Source: a virus. From it: DNA of 45,208 bases. The position numbers were made by a program, and so were the translations under genes. The stretch is taken from IMG/VR virus record IMGVR_UViG_3300044949_002857, positions 1 to 45,208 of that record; one strand, given 5' to 3'. The notes under the pieces were generated by a model. The model had not been told where the DNA came from, made no database searches, and saw nothing but the letters and a program-made list of their open reading frames with translations. How positions within the stretch are numbered: the first letter of the stretch is position 1; the number at the start of each line of letters is the position of its first letter. This document shows positions 5,122-18,988 of this stretch, piece by piece.

Positions 5122-6111
5122 TTAAATTGCATTTTTAATAGCCTGACAAATTCGTTGCATAAGCAATGGGGGAATGGAATTTCCAATTCCCCTAACATCA
5201 ACCGCAGACTTACCCGACCATTTATAAGAATCAGGAAAAGATTGTATTCGTGCTAACGCATGGGTGCTTAAACTCTTGCAAGTATCACCACAGACAATAT
5301 CAATTATTTTAGAGCGATTGCCATTGTGTCCATCGTCACCTAACACTGCACGAATAGTCCAACATGGTTCTAATGGTGTTTTGACCTTGGGTTTGCCACG
5401 GTATCCAATTCGTTCTACTAGTACCATTGAGTCGCCATAGGGTGCTACAGCGTCCTTCTGTCGGGGTGTTATCTGTGATTCAGTGAAGTGGGGAATCAGA
5501 TCACAAATCGCTTCATGCCACCCAATCCAGTTTTTCCTAAATAGATTAATTTGCCCATTAATTGCTTTTCCATACTCAGGAATAATGCAAGGAAAGTCAA
5601 ACCCATCAGATACGGCAATACTTAAAAACCGTTTTCGGGATTGAGGTACACCGTAATCAGCAGCATTGTAAATACCTTTGCCAATCCGATATCCTTTGTC
5701 TATTAAAAATGCTTCAAAGTCCAGATAAACCTTTGATTTAGAATAACCGGGGACGTTTTCTAAAACTATAAATTCAGGTTCATATAAGCTGTAAAATTCA
5801 TGGGTTGCACTCAATATATTAGCACGAACGCTATCTTTATTGGTAGCCACATTAACCACTGAAAAGTCTTGACAAGGTGGTGAAGTTTGGTGAACTAAAA
5901 TATCGCCATTCCGGTCTTTTTTGGTGGGAATATTTAAATTCCTGAAGTTAACTTTGGCAATATCTTCTATTAATACATCCCCACAATTAGTTTGATAAAG
6001 TTCTGCTATTCTAGGATCAAACTCAATAGCAGATATTGGTTTTAATAAAGCAGACATTGCACCTATAGTTGAGCCACCGCATCCTGAAAAATGAGTAGAG
6101 TAATAAATCAT
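5122..6111 (-). CDS. DNA (cytosine-5)-methyltransferase
   Basis: 329 aa. Motif I is the variant HFSGCGGSTIGAM at residues 7-19, motif IV is SPPCQDFS with catalytic Cys80, motif VI is ENVP at 119-122, and motif VIII is QSRKR at about 157-161. The C-terminal GIGNSIPP is the usual motif X. It transfers methyl from SAM to C5 of cytosine at a specific site. The region between motifs VIII and IX, which sets the target, is short, so specificity cannot be read. No cognate endonuclease is adjacent, so it is probably a solitary phage enzyme protecting against host restriction. It overlaps the upstream small gene by 4 nt (ATGA). Confidence 0.93.
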   Translation of the reverse strand: MIYYSTHFSGCGGSTIGAMSALLKPISAIEFDPRIAELYQTNCGDVLIEDIAKVNFRNLNIPTKKDRNGDILVHQTSPPCQDFSVVNVATNKDSVRANILSATHEFYSLYEPEFIVLENVPGYSKSKVYLDFEAFLIDKGYRIGKGIYNAADYGVPQSRKRFLSIAVSDGFDFPCIIPEYGKAINGQINLFRKNWIGWHEAICDLIPHFTESQITPRQKDAVAPYGDSMVLVERIGYRGKPKVKTPLEPCWTIRAVLGDDGHNGNRSKIIDIVCGDTCKSLSTHALARIQSFPDSYKWSGKSAVDVRGIGNSIPPLLMQRICQAIKNAI

Positions 6112-6371
6112 TTATGTTTCACCTGTATTGCACCTTGAATTATCAAAAATCTCCAATCAATATTGTCCCTAATTCTGTTAGAATTACGCTTACACATAAA
6201 CCAACTTTGAGATAATGTTCCACGCCAAAATATTGTATCTAAAATCATAACAAAATACTCTATGCCCAGAAGTTTTAAATAAAACCCACCGGGCTTTAAG
6301 TTAACCACAAAGATGGTTTGTCCACCTTTTTCTATTACAAAACCTATGTCTTTAGTTCTTTGAATTTTCAT
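6108..6371 (-). CDS. Hypothetical protein, 87 aa
   Basis: Small basic protein overlapping the methyltransferase start by 4 nt, so probably co-translated with it. It contains VIEKGGQTIFVVNLKPGG, then hydrophobic and aromatic residues, but no clear membrane segment or catalytic motif. There is no good Shine-Dalgarno sequence before the ATG. Not recognised; the tight coupling suggests a role with the methyltransferase or simply operon packing. Confidence 0.6.
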   Translation of the reverse strand: MKIQRTKDIGFVIEKGGQTIFVVNLKPGGFYLKLLGIEYFVMILDTIFWRGTLSQSWFMCKRNSNRIRDNIDWRFLIIQGAIQVKHK

Positions 6372-8818: not shown

Positions 8819-9673
8819 ATGATTAATCAAGTAATTCATGGTGATTGTTTTGAAGTTTTGAAAACTATTCCTGATGGTTCTATTGACGCTGTAATCACAG
8901 ATCCGCCTTACATGACAACTGATTTAAACTTTGATAAAACAGGCTTTGATGTTGACTTATTCTTAAAATTATTATTACCAAAACTTAAAAGTGATGGACA
9001 ATTAGCTGCATTTGGGAGTATTGAATTACTTGCTAAGTTTAGCGGTATTTATCCTATTAGATGGTCAGGAATGTGGTTAAAACCGAGAGGAGTGATGAGA
9101 ACTCATACAGCCAAGAAACCTATGAGCAAAAGCGAACCTTACTGTATATTTGCTCACCCAAAACATAAAGTATCAAACCTTGTTTATAACAAAATATTAT
9201 TGCCAGGAGAGCCTTATGAAAAAAAACAAAAAAATACTGGCTATATTAGAGACGGCAAAAATCAAATAGATAGAGCAAATACTTCTGCATGGACTAAGGA
9301 CGGGTATATCTCAAAAAACCTGGGTACAAGACAACAAACAGATGTTATTGAATCTCCGTTCAAAGGCTGCATGAAACATCATGAACGAACCATTCACCCC
9401 ACACAAAAGCCTGTAGCACTGATATCTACATTGGTTCAGTGGATAACCAACCCCGGCGATACAGTCCTTGACCCTTTTGCTGGTAGTGGTACAACAGCAC
9501 TAGCCTGTAAAGAACTCAACAGAAACTATATCTGCATTGAGAAGGAACGGGAATATATTGACATTATTCATCAACGCCTAAACACACCCATAGCTGAAAG
9601 GGGATTAACTGTAGAGGAACAGGTAGAGATTGAGAAAACTAAGTCACCTTATCAACAGTTGTCATTGTTTTAG
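8819..9673 (+). CDS. DNA N6-adenine or N4-cytosine methyltransferase (DPPY type)
   Basis: 284 aa. Catalytic motif DPPY at residues 28-31 precedes the SAM-binding motif DPFAGSGT at 218-225, the beta-class order, with the target-recognition region between them. HPTQKP before motif I is typical of this family. The motif DPPY fits N6-adenine or N4-cytosine methylation; specificity cannot be read. No partner nuclease is near. The protein ends in QLSLF, a sliding-clamp-binding-like peptide identical to the Csf1 end. It is expressed from a divergent promoter shared with an antirepressor-like gene. Confidence 0.92.
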   Translation: MINQVIHGDCFEVLKTIPDGSIDAVITDPPYMTTDLNFDKTGFDVDLFLKLLLPKLKSDGQLAAFGSIELLAKFSGIYPIRWSGMWLKPRGVMRTHTAKKPMSKSEPYCIFAHPKHKVSNLVYNKILLPGEPYEKKQKNTGYIRDGKNQIDRANTSAWTKDGYISKNLGTRQQTDVIESPFKGCMKHHERTIHPTQKPVALISTLVQWITNPGDTVLDPFAGSGTTALACKELNRNYICIEKEREYIDIIHQRLNTPIAERGLTVEEQVEIEKTKSPYQQLSLF

Positions 9674-16211: not shown

Positions 16212-16877
16212 TCATGGCTTATGAATTAATGTTGACGCTGAACAATCTTTCCCTAATTTAATATCAAAGATAGCGTCGTAGCATTGCCGACCGCTGTTCA
16301 TGACTGGTTTTCCGTTCTTAAACTGCGGAACACCTTGGATTGTTTTTTGGCACTTACTCATAGGAATACCTTCCTTAAGGTAATCCACTCTATCCGCGAT
16401 CGGATAGATGTGACGAATATGTGCGTTCAAAGATTCCCAAGCTTTAGCTCTTCCTTGAGAGCAATTCCAATCCAGTGGCATTAGAAATAGTAGTCGGGAA
16501 TTGGGGCTATTATTAAGTAGTTCCAAGGATTTAGCAACTGCTTCAACACACAGAGAAAAAGGCGGGTTAGTGATGATAAGGTCGCATCCCCATATAGAGA
16601 CATCCTTAAAAAAATCACCATTTACCCATGTAGCTGACTTGGCTTTTTCTTTCCCTTGCAAGAATCGGGAATACTTGATTTCTATACATTCTATTGAGCG
16701 ATCGCTCGGTAGGTATTTAGCTATCTGCCCAGAACCAGCAAAGGGTTCTAGTATTTGTTTGTCCGTGGGTAAGACCAGTCTAGACATAGCGACAGCAAGC
16801 CAGTCAGGTGTCTCATAGTCGTCGTTTGTGAAGTCACTCGTGGTGACTTGTTCTTGAAAAAGTGCTAATTGGTTCAT
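16212..16877 (-). CDS. Class I SAM-dependent (NPPF) DNA methyltransferase-like protein
   Basis: 221 aa. SAM-binding motif I (ILEPFAGSGQIAKYL) lies at about residues 42-56, and the catalytic NPPF is at 104-107, the I-before-IV order of the gamma-type adenine methyltransferases. A target-recognition domain is small or absent; after NPPF the protein reads LLFLMPLDWNCSQGR, typical of small phage N6-adenine enzymes. Near the C-terminus is a cysteine-containing SGRQCYDAIF. The N-terminus, MNQLALFQEQ, contains a clamp-motif-like QLALF. No nuclease partner is near. Confidence 0.8.
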   Translation of the reverse strand: MNQLALFQEQVTTSDFTNDDYETPDWLAVAMSRLVLPTDKQILEPFAGSGQIAKYLPSDRSIECIEIKYSRFLQGKEKAKSATWVNGDFFKDVSIWGCDLIITNPPFSLCVEAVAKSLELLNNSPNSRLLFLMPLDWNCSQGRAKAWESLNAHIRHIYPIADRVDYLKEGIPMSKCQKTIQGVPQFKNGKPVMNSGRQCYDAIFDIKLGKDCSASTLIHKP

Positions 16878-17016: not shown

Positions 17017-17247
17017 CTAAAAAACATCAACTACAGGATTACCCCTGCCCCAGCGGGCTGACCAGGAAAGCCCCGACCAAGTAGTGACACGGGTAATTTT
17101 CCCGTTCTCTACTTTAATACTTGCTTGCTCTGTGGGTATTTCCCCAAAGTGAAATACGTCACTCTCAGGAAACTCAGTCCCTATCAAGGTACGAAGTGCT
17201 TCAGCACTCTTCCAGTTAGCAATTATGAATTGTTTAATATCGTCCAT
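17017..17247 (-). CDS. Hypothetical protein downstream of ribozyme B, 76 aa
   Basis: Start at MDDIKQF (17247), preceded by a strong AGGAGA site; longer starts run through the hammerhead element and are unlikely. The sequence has an N-terminal helix (DDIKQFIIANWKSAEALRTL) and a strand pair near the end (ASIKVENGKITRVTTW). Not recognised. It is the last gene of the 19-17 kb minus-strand operon, and its 5' leader would be created by cleavage at ribozyme B. Confidence 0.6.
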   Translation of the reverse strand: MDDIKQFIIANWKSAEALRTLIGTEFPESDVFHFGEIPTEQASIKVENGKITRVTTWSGLSWSARWGRGNPVVDVF

Positions 17248-17283
17248 GTCTGTCTCCTGTGGGGTGTAATGTAAATTTGGCTT

Positions 17284-17339
17284 CCCACTACTACCAAGGG
17301 GTAGTTTCGGACGGTAGCCAGCCGTCCTCGTCAGGTGGG
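17284..17339 (-). ncRNA. Type I hammerhead ribozyme, copy B
   Basis: Minus-strand RNA: stem I CCCAC/GUGGG; core CUGACGA; stem II GGACGG/CCGUCC with a 7-nt loop; GAAA; stem III ACUACC/GGUAGU with loop CCUU; then A17. All invariant core positions (C3 U4 G5 A6 G8 A9, G12 A13 A14, A15.1-U16.1, H17) are present. The cleavage triplet is GUA, predicting a cut between 17289 and 17288. It starts 2 nt after the stop codon of the 17342-17578 gene. After cleavage, GUGGG could re-pair with a conserved CCCCAC downstream. Confidence 0.85.
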
Positions 17340-17341
17340 GA

Positions 17342-17578
17342 TTAAAAGTGTTTAACACCCCTTCTTTTTCTGACTTTTTCTACATCGCTGTAGAAAGACT
17401 CTCTAGCATCAAAACTAACACGATTACTGCGGGCAAAAGCCGCAGCTTTTGCAGGACAGTTGAAGAAGTGAAAAGAACAACAGCGTTCCTTGTTTGCGTC
17501 AAGGTACTCAATTTGGATCTCCCAAAATTTTTGCTCTGGAGTTTTGTCCAAGTAGCTCGGTCTTTCTAATGCTTTCAT
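17342..17578 (-). CDS. Hypothetical protein bracketed by two hammerheads, 78 aa
   Basis: Start ATG at 17578 after a GGGAGA site. The protein is charged and contains KFWEIQIEYLDANKERCCSF, then NCPAKAAAFARSNRV, and ends in KVRKRRGVKHF. Three cysteines, no membrane segment, no recognised family. It has its own upstream promoter (17610-17638) and lies between ribozyme A and ribozyme B. Cleavage at both would release a 417-nt RNA that holds exactly this ORF. That arrangement is the reason to study it; its function cannot be inferred. Confidence 0.6.
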   Translation of the reverse strand: MKALERPSYLDKTPEQKFWEIQIEYLDANKERCCSFHFFNCPAKAAAFARSNRVSFDARESFYSDVEKVRKRRGVKHF

Positions 17579-17609
17579 GATTGTCTCCCTGTTGTTCTTT
17601 GATATTTCT

Positions 17610-17638
17610 ATCTTATTCTATAAAGAAACAATTGTCAA
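17610..17638 (-). promoter_or_regulatory. Promoter of the 17342-17578 gene
   Basis: On the minus strand TTGACA (17638-17633) and TAAGAT (17615-17610) are 17 bp apart, about 30 bp before the start codon. A transcript starting here would include only ribozyme B. Confidence 0.6.
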
Positions 17639-17700
17639 TACTGAAATTAGAATTATTTTATTTGACAAGTGTTTTTATTATAGTGGGGTAAATTTGGCTT

Positions 17701-17757
17701 CCCACTACTACCAGGGTGGTAGTTTCGTCCGGTAGCCAGCCGTCCTCGTCAGGCGGG
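17701..17757 (-). ncRNA. Type I hammerhead ribozyme, copy A
   Basis: Second copy of the element. Stem I CCCGC/GUGGG (one G-U in place of A-U in copy B), the same CUGACGA core, stem II GGACGG/CCGGAC, GAAA, stem III ACUACC/GGUAGU with loop ACCCU, then A17. The two middle stem II positions are G-A and A-G, which can form tandem sheared pairs. The predicted cut is between 17706 and 17705. It begins directly after the stop codon of the 17759-18988 gene. Sequence outside the core is also conserved with copy B (for example AAGCCAAATTTAC), so the pair arose by duplication. Confidence 0.78.
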
Positions 17758-17758
17758 G

Positions 17759-18988
17759 TTAGGCTGTTTGCAGCCACTTCTCGAAAGACTTGATTGGGAA
17801 GCCTTTCTTCTGTTGAAGAATTTTGTACTCTTGATATTGCTCTTTTTGAGCAGCAAGCAGTTCACCTACTCGCTTGCGTTCAGCTAACAGGCTGTTTATG
17901 TGGTTCATGACTACATCCCGGTTTGAACCCAAAGATTTAGATTCGCGGGTACGTTCAGCCAACCCACGAGTACGGTCTTCGCATTGCTGCCACGCTGTTC
18001 CGTCTTGGCTATCCCACCAGAAAGAGTAGATGTAATCATCGCCAACCCAGAAACGATTAACACTACCCTTGGAATCAACTTCTTTTTGAAACCAATCAGG
18101 CATGGGTGTAGCCAGTTTAGCAGCTTCTTCAGCTGCTATTTTTGCCAGTCTATCCTGCTCCCAACGAGCGCGGATAGACTCTATCTTGAATACTAAGTCT
18201 GCAAAAGAAAGATTTTCGCGCTTACAATAGTCGCGCACATACCCTTGCATTGATGCAAGGATTTGTTCTTCAGTGTTAATCCGAAGAAGATCAACCTTTT
18301 CTTCACACCACAGAGTACGCCCATCTGCATGGGCGTACTCCCAGACGGTATAGTAGGTTTTATCTGAGTAGATGTCCCCTGAAAAACTTAGGGACTGATT
18401 GTAAGTTGATTTAGTTTTTTCCTTTCCTGTGGGAACAAAGGTTTCCCCCCAGTATTTTCTGGGGAGGTTATGGCAGTAGATGTCTACTGCCGCTTCAAGT
18501 GACTTTTGATTAAACATAGCGCACGGTGCGGCGCTATGATGATACTTATGCCAGTCGTCTAAACAGGTCAAACCTGCTTGGATTTCTTTTAGCAGAGGAT
18601 CAGTGGTTAGTGTTTCCTGGACTTCATCCCAGGAGACACATTGCCACAGTCTGTCAGAATCGCTATCAATATCGCCATAGATAGCGACTTCTAAGTCGTA
18701 CCAATCCAAATCTTCTGGATTGGTGTCTACTTGAATAATGTCTATTAATCCAGAGGTGTTTAGAACTCCATTTAAGATTACAGCTAATTTTTTTTGAATT
18801 TCAGGATGAAGTTCTGTAACGTTAATTTTAAACATTTTTGTCTCCTCTTGTACCTGTTCCTGTTCCTCTAATTGAGCGTCAATACTGATTAACTCATCTA
18901 CCCAGCGGTAGATGTTTTGCTGACCTCTCCCGACGCGGGAGATCAAATTTACTAGCACTTCTCTTCTTTTTAGCAAGTCCATGTCCAT
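17759..18988 (-). CDS. Large hypothetical protein upstream of ribozyme A, 409 aa
   Basis: Start MDMDLLKRRE after a strong GGGAGGG site. The N-terminal 60 residues and the C-terminal 60 (LAERKRVGELLAAQKEQYQE, then KILQQKKG) look coiled-coil-like. The middle contains acidic strand segments and a late aromatic stretch (VGDDYIYSFWWDSQDG). I see no nuclease, ATPase or membrane motif. Expressed from the promoter overlapping the stop of the small RHH-like gene, and its own stop codon abuts the hammerhead. Function unknown. Confidence 0.65.
   Translation of the reverse strand: MDMDLLKRREVLVNLISRVGRGQQNIYRWVDELISIDAQLEEQEQVQEETKMFKINVTELHPEIQKKLAVILNGVLNTSGLIDIIQVDTNPEDLDWYDLEVAIYGDIDSDSDRLWQCVSWDEVQETLTTDPLLKEIQAGLTCLDDWHKYHHSAAPCAMFNQKSLEAAVDIYCHNLPRKYWGETFVPTGKEKTKSTYNQSLSFSGDIYSDKTYYTVWEYAHADGRTLWCEEKVDLLRINTEEQILASMQGYVRDYCKRENLSFADLVFKIESIRARWEQDRLAKIAAEEAAKLATPMPDWFQKEVDSKGSVNRFWVGDDYIYSFWWDSQDGTAWQQCEDRTRGLAERTRESKSLGSNRDVVMNHINSLLAERKRVGELLAAQKEQYQEYKILQQKKGFPIKSFEKWLQTA

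Follow-up and report, generated by a model that had tools for sequence, protein, structure and literature searches.

Two predicted type I hammerhead ribozymes directly behind stop codons of phage genes, and a conserved downstream arm complementary to stem I

Since 2011 it has been an open question what purpose rows of hammerhead ribozymes serve between the genes of phages and prophages (PMC3088659; PMC10085705). Perreault et al. (2011; PMC3088659) described clustered hammerheads of types I to III in phages and prophages, often several per prophage and flanking single genes, found loop-to-tail pseudoknots in about 40%, and reported cleavage of tandem arrays in vitro for three and in E. coli for one, an A. 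tumefaciens array. The cutting of long phage transcripts between genes was proposed in the same study. An enrichment of hammerhead and twister ribozymes close to genes of Mu-like phages, and close to one another, has also been noted, its biological reason being given as unknown (PMC10085705). The question is raised anew by a viral DNA of 45,208 nucleotides (IMG/VR record IMGVR_UViG_3300044949_002857; the whole stretch is hereafter called the window), in which a preliminary description, made from the letters alone, had placed two tandem type I hammerheads, each directly after a stop codon in a phage operon. Re-reading of the sequence bore out the coordinates given there, the letters of the core, both stop codons and the places where cuts are predicted (Table 1), and both elements do lie on the same strand as the genes.

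Table 1. Positions of the two putative ribozymes, their sequence elements and the neighbouring genes in the window.
Feature	Position	Strand	Remark
Copy B, type I hammerhead ribozyme	17284-17339	minus	Predicted cut between 17289 and 17288; assigned by covariance model, fold and covariation
Copy B stem I, CCCAC / GUGGG	17339-17335 / 17288-17284	minus	
Copy B core CUGACGA	17334-17328		Followed by 6-bp stem II, GAA and 6-bp stem III; H17 = A17289
Copy B loop II UGGCU	17316-17320	minus	Pseudoknot 5' partner
Copy B 3' flank AGCCA	17278-17282	minus	Pseudoknot 3' partner
Copy B downstream arm CCCAC	17259-17263	minus	Complementary to GUGGG 17288-17284; adjoins Shine-Dalgarno AGGAG 17258-17254
Copy A, type I hammerhead ribozyme, chimeric	17701-17757	minus	Tandem G-A mismatch in stem II
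Copy A predicted cut	between 17706 and 17705	minus	
Copy A stem I, CCCGC / GUGGG	17757-17753 / 17705-17701	minus	H17 = A17706
Copy A loop II UGGCU	17734-17738	minus	Pseudoknot 5' partner
Copy A 3' flank AGCCA	17695-17699	minus	Pseudoknot 3' partner
Copy A downstream arm CCCAC	17683-17687	minus	
Stop codon TAA, 409-aa gene	17759-17761	minus	1 nt before copy A stem I
Stop codon TAA, 78-aa gene	17342-17344	minus	2 nt before copy B stem I
409-aa protein gene	17759-18988	minus	Hammerhead after stop in most orthologous lineages
78-aa gene (MKALERP...)	17342-17578	minus	Between the two ribozymes; replaced in L006
76-aa gene	17017-17247	minus	3' of copy B
Promoter-like site TTGACA-17-TAAGAT	17610-17638	minus	3' of copy A, 5' of the 78-aa gene

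The two copies are 418 nt apart, are 93% identical across 71 nt, and both carry the complete hammerhead core (C3 U4 G5 A6 N7 G8 A9, G12 A13 A14, A15.1-U16.1 and H17). A bare core is no evidence by itself, since the generic core pattern has 28 matches in the window, a number not clearly above that in shuffled sequence; stems and relatives are needed in addition. About 190 hammerhead-like elements were gathered by pattern scans of viral contigs and a phage collection and by a protein-based scan, and a covariance model was built from 22 relatives, with the window, L005, L006, L033 and L052 excluded. In the 45-kb window, this model has just two matches, copy B (85.0 bits, E = 2.9e-20) and copy A (71.8 bits, E = 8.4e-17; both E-values come from a rough calibration). 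Chance is thereby excluded, because a model lacking the window and its near relatives picks precisely these two sites, and the type I identity given in the preliminary description is borne out. The pattern read backwards had no match. Several coding-strand hammerheads between phage genes are a shared feature of the group: next to the two copies in the window, the model matches one to four elements in each of 16 related records, including two in the Aphanizomenon phage vB_AphaS-CL131. Judged by this comparison, both elements are putative natural type I hammerhead ribozymes in the mRNA of phage genes, and self-cleavage is predicted.

A search with the Rfam model RF00163 (Hammerhead_1), proposed as a check in the preliminary description, had the opposite outcome, as neither copy matched at the gathering cut-off of 34 bits or at E <= 10. 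We attribute this silence to a limit of the library, because the cut-off turns away textbook phage hammerheads as well, with scores of 32.5 (the best in L040), 30.2 and 29.3 bits. The window copies share the core, the order of the stems and the open stem I with RF00163, and are set apart from it by a 5-bp stem I, a 6-bp stem II with a 7-nt loop, and a pseudoknot tail. The standard cut-off thus hides the phage hammerheads checked in this analysis, and hammerheads of phages are probably much under-annotated. Weak matches of the window to other Rfam entries (P14, Mu-gpT-DE, sR55) were discarded as chance.

Support for the fold comes from an alignment of 30 related elements (A3), from which the degenerate element L240_1885 was omitted. 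Over stems I to III and the pseudoknot, 95.3% of the cells are paired and 11 pairs have changed on both sides; the covariation score of 0.310 compares with 0.129 for shuffled and at most 0.087 for slid versions, and none of 500 shuffles was as good. Compensatory changes are strong in stems II and III, while the core does not vary throughout the alignment. The pseudoknot, predicted by comparison between loop II and the AGCCA immediately 3' of stem I, is paired in 81% of the cells and has two pairs changed on both sides, from G-C to A-U. Type I hammerheads are expected to have a tertiary contact between the stem I side and loop II, which this predicted pseudoknot fits. In L104, L251 and L254, inspection indicates that it is retained in a different register and with changed letters (UAGC or CAGC opposite GCUG), and in L250, L251 and L254, whose proteins are only 36-40% identical, stem II and its loop have a different sequence with the pairing kept.

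The claim of three good stems stands for copy B, in which all three helices, with stem I open, are complete and the energy minimum (-22.5 kcal/mol) is the type I hammerhead fold itself. It fails for copy A, whose core, stem I (with one G-U pair) and stem III are intact, but whose stem II forms only four of six pairs and whose minimum-energy fold differs from the hammerhead. The 5'-GA/GA mismatch in this stem had been read as possibly meaningful sheared pairs, a reading that is contradicted by the origin of the two halves: the 5' half of copy A is 100% identical to L005 (stem II type GGACGG/CCGUCC), the 3' half is 97% identical to L052 and L011 (stem II type GUCCGG/CCGGAC), and since each of these types is self-consistent, the mismatch marks a recombination junction. 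Tandem G-A mismatches in a 5'-GGAC-3' setting moreover tend toward imino rather than sheared pairs. With its stem II broken, copy A may be slow or dead. The element length of 56-57 nt given previously is right for the hammerhead proper, but the repeat does not end at stem I; it continues through AGCCA into a second CCCAC.

The position of the ribozymes relative to the genes is no coincidence of this window, as adjacency to a stop codon is a general trait of phage hammerheads. Among 160 of them, 52.5% begin 0-12 nt past the stop codon that closes an open frame of at least 50 codons, compared with 5.4% of random positions; the gap has a median of 4.5 nt on the 5' side and of 37.5 nt on the 3' side, where it is measured to a start codon preceded by a Shine-Dalgarno sequence. 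Crowding of genes alone is insufficient to account for this, because 15 of the 24 hammerheads with a 3' gap of at least 100 nt still lie -9 to 8 nt from a stop. A scan for the C-terminal motif of the 409-aa protein, which is blind to RNA, found 17 loci, and a hammerhead follows the stop directly in all lineages of this protein except L244 and L247/248/252, in which it comes after the next gene instead; in L249, the hammerhead lies within a few tens of nt past the end of the matched protein stretch. Some variations on this theme should be mentioned. The minus strand of the phage contig L040 carries five consecutive type I hammerheads between about 170 and 4150, with differing, A+T-rich stem I sequences, and in some of these the stem I 5' strand ends in the UAA stop codon itself (UAACUGAUGA). 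Among phage hammerheads, there is also a minority (e.g., L093, L145, L150) in which the longest upstream frame stops at the core UGA (U4 G5 A6), which would then double as a stop codon; the count is 23-30 cases, several of which are short open frames in G+C-rich DNA, and the frames may in part be spurious.

The second CCCAC, which repeats the letters of the stem I 5' strand, begins 20 nt past stem I in copy B and 13 nt past it in copy A. Among the elements of the clade, its distance 3' of stem I ranges from 11 to 20 nt, the spacer varies in length and sequence, and in most cases a Shine-Dalgarno-like purine stretch follows no more than about 3 nt 3' of the arm. CCCAC occurs within 40 nt in 14 of 15 dereplicated clade elements, where shuffles predict 0.4 and control windows gave 0-2, and it is found in all 30 elements of the A3 alignment; the degenerate L240_1885, with its broken stem II, has lost it. 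Because the arm is invariant in the clade apart from the degenerate copy of phage CL131, in which the 5' strand and the arm are altered together (GCCGC ... GCAGU ... ACCGC), its support there is conservation. Among phage hammerheads more widely, the arm often takes the form of a short hairpin, GNGG-GAAA/GAAG-CCNC, that overlaps the pseudoknot tail, and the arm base tracks stem I (U:A 45, U:G 7, C:A 4, C:G 12; Fisher p = 7.6e-6). This association persists after dereplication (p = 5e-4 at 80%, p = 0.003 at 72%) among elements that share ancestry, and in this wider set the arm base showed no association with the letter of loop II that would be required if only the pseudoknot were at work. Where stem I is other than GUGGG/GCGGG, the element's own flanks pair in 21 of 42 cases against 12.8 expected with permuted flanks (p = 0.004), and many GCGGG hammerheads are without a matching arm. 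Covariation of the arm outside the window clade is hence best described as partial, with shared ancestry not fully corrected for. A role of the arm in blocking the Shine-Dalgarno sequence was considered and rejected, as the latter lies outside the hairpin in both folds.

The fold predictions place the arm in competition with the ribozyme. The 5' hairpin that GUGGG and the arm would form on the cut product has a mean energy of -6.7 kcal/mol, and in uncut RNA the pairing of GUGGG with stem I or with the arm differs by a mean of only 0.3 kcal/mol, with the pseudoknot not counted. At the predicted energy minimum of the full-length RNA, the arm is paired in place of stem I, which might make cutting inefficient.

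The 409-aa protein has distant relatives at 24-93% identity and no match in Pfam, PHROG or GenBank phages, and its AlphaFold model (pLDDT 80, pTM 0.45) has no PDB fold match at E <= 0.001. Its orthologs keep an N-terminal DLxxRQQxLINLIxRVG and a C-terminal IKSFEKWLQT, with an unrelated middle in L058, L008 and L077; going by these sequences, the family appears modular, with no function assigned by similarity. Three DNA methyltransferase-like genes are present in the 45-kb record (5122-6111, 8819-9673 and 16212-16877), and no tRNA was found in the window. That the genes form a single operon is not certain, given the promoter-like site that separates copy A from the gene after it; such sites occur at about chance frequency in the window (four found, 3.2 expected in shuffled sequence). 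A portal-like protein weakly matches proteins of several phages, cyanophages included, and an Aphanizomenon phage carries the nearest annotated element; the source is a freshwater phage, for which a filamentous cyanobacterium is the likely host. The two hammerheads of phage CL131 (MG209611.1, 98441-98378 and 105233-105163; L279 and L007) are themselves unannotated and lie directly 3' of the stop codons of gp131 and gp142; the first is overlapped by the annotated 24-aa gp130 (98349-98423), an annotation that is doubtful. Another relative, the 86-kb contig IMGVR_UViG_3300042908_001045, has at each of its two ends (L250 and L254), on opposite strands, the terminal part of a 409-aa-like gene together with a hammerhead, which is either an inverted terminal duplication or an assembly artefact.

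What, then, do these elements do? Comparison of the relatives shows the hammerhead fold, the pseudoknot, the adjacency to stop codons and the conserved arm, and from these we infer cleavage in cells, protection of the new 5' end and gating. We consider it probable that the hammerhead cuts the message and that GUGGG and the downstream CCCAC, a competitor of stem I beforehand, subsequently form a 5' hairpin on the downstream mRNA. Upon transcription of the CCCAC-core-GUGGG segment, stem I would close, the pseudoknot between loop II and AGCCA would lock it to stem II, and the RNA would cut itself 3' of A17289 (copy B) or A17706 (copy A). The upstream message would be left with its stop codon immediately followed by stem-loops II and III, and the downstream message would begin with 5'-OH-GUGGG and pair with the second CCCAC, which lies 11-20 nt 3' of it, to yield a 5'-terminal hairpin next to which the Shine-Dalgarno sequence stays free. 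Such a product hairpin would oppose religation, and thus make cutting hard to reverse, and would probably shield the new 5' end. Before cutting, the arm would compete with stem I, and the folding time or a ribosome at the stop codon may therefore matter. A coupling of cleavage to translation, as suggested in the preliminary description, is possible, and the downstream competitor arm offers a concrete mechanism for it.

In its strongest form, this coupling would make the element a ribosome-gated ribozyme attenuator with three strands (1, CCCAC; 2, GUGGG; 3, the downstream CCCAC), in which the 1-2 helix is active, the 2-3 helix leaves the RNA uncut, and the two are mutually exclusive. A terminating ribosome would cover strand 1, so that heavy translation would keep messages joined and messages without translation would be cut, each cut equipping the downstream gene with a 5' hairpin from the outset. 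The geometry for this, with exclusive helices and the ribosome's stop position above strand 1, is present in the sequence. The near isoenergetic 1-2 and 2-3 folds and the excess of stem I starts next to stop codons, also where ample space is free 3' of the hammerhead, fit it, as does the finding that downstream competitors influence ribozyme assembly in cells (PMC2817708). In that study, too, the ribozyme's own stem faces competition from a complementary strand downstream, in a 1-2 versus 2-3 choice, but the system is an engineered hairpin ribozyme in yeast, whereas the arrangement in phages is natural and conserved. We nevertheless regard the attenuator as rather unlikely, because the product hairpin alone would account for the arm too, the short intergenic gaps of phages explain the stop adjacency in part, and about half of the hammerheads are not so near a stop. 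Very unlikely, in our view, is the proposal that the hammerhead serves to form or stabilize the transcript 3' end, substituting for a terminator hairpin and protecting the upstream mRNA, the downstream product being irrelevant. The placement of stem-loops II and III directly behind the stop would suit this idea, as would the fact that no same-strand terminator-like site was found from copy A to the next gene; the conserved arm, and the gene with its Shine-Dalgarno sequence directly after the arm, would be left unexplained.

The elements could also mainly be DNA recombination joints through which phages exchange small genes, with ribozyme activity being secondary. Recombination has occurred at them: between window positions 17340-17591 and L006 positions 5919-6188, the 78-aa gene is swapped for an unrelated 83-aa gene, and the homology breaks at the Shine-Dalgarno sequence and resumes at the stop codon plus hammerhead, breakpoints that indicate an exchange of genes as hammerhead-bounded cassettes. 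The cassette of L006 has its own CCCCGC-AGGAG leader. Further traces are the chimeric copy A, the reciprocal stem II combination in L240_1885, and a recombination scar in L304 (the contig of L076), where a hammerhead that breaks off in stem III is joined to the first part of a 409-aa-like gene beside an intact copy. Yet compensatory changes in the stems require selection on RNA, and the repeats of L104, L251 and L254 are too diverged to recombine and have retained the fold. The covariation hence refutes recombination as the sole function, and we deem a mainly recombinational role most improbable; recombination stands as a consequence. The view that the elements are decayed, inactive hammerhead relics could draw on the two mismatches in stem II of copy A and on the missing Rfam match, but it is scarcely credible in the face of the invariant core in copy B and the 30 aligned elements, the orthologs at 36-40% protein identity and the compensatory stem changes.

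The presence of multiple hammerheads between phage genes, the pseudoknots and the idea of mRNA processing are all shared with the elements of PMC3088659, and neither the kind of element nor this idea is new. The main text of that study, however, makes no mention of stop codons, Shine-Dalgarno sequences or a downstream second stem I strand. Furthermore, the window clade is found in phage records; its specific pattern is absent from 84,980 genomes, and no clade members were found among plasmids. Compared with PMC10085705, the place of the ribozyme relative to the stop codon, the pseudoknot, the arm and the Shine-Dalgarno sequence is resolved here. The HDV-like theta ribozymes of gut phages (PMC10879173) are likewise self-cleaving RNAs in phage genomes, but belong to another ribozyme class and are linked to tRNAs, unlike the elements of the window. 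In retrozymes and circular RNA agents, paired ribozymes release a circular replicating RNA, whereas between copies A and B there is a protein gene and a promoter-like site, and nothing points to the RNA being replicated. Going by the open-access full texts searched, neither the downstream arm nor the stop adjacency measured here appears to have an earlier description.

The order that emerges (the stop codon, then the ribozyme and its pseudoknot tail, then a second strand of stem I, and finally the Shine-Dalgarno sequence with the next gene) bears directly on the question of what rows of hammerheads do in phages and prophages. It splits this question into parts that can each be tested, namely the fate of the new 5' end, the irreversibility that the arm may confer on cleavage, and a gating by translation.
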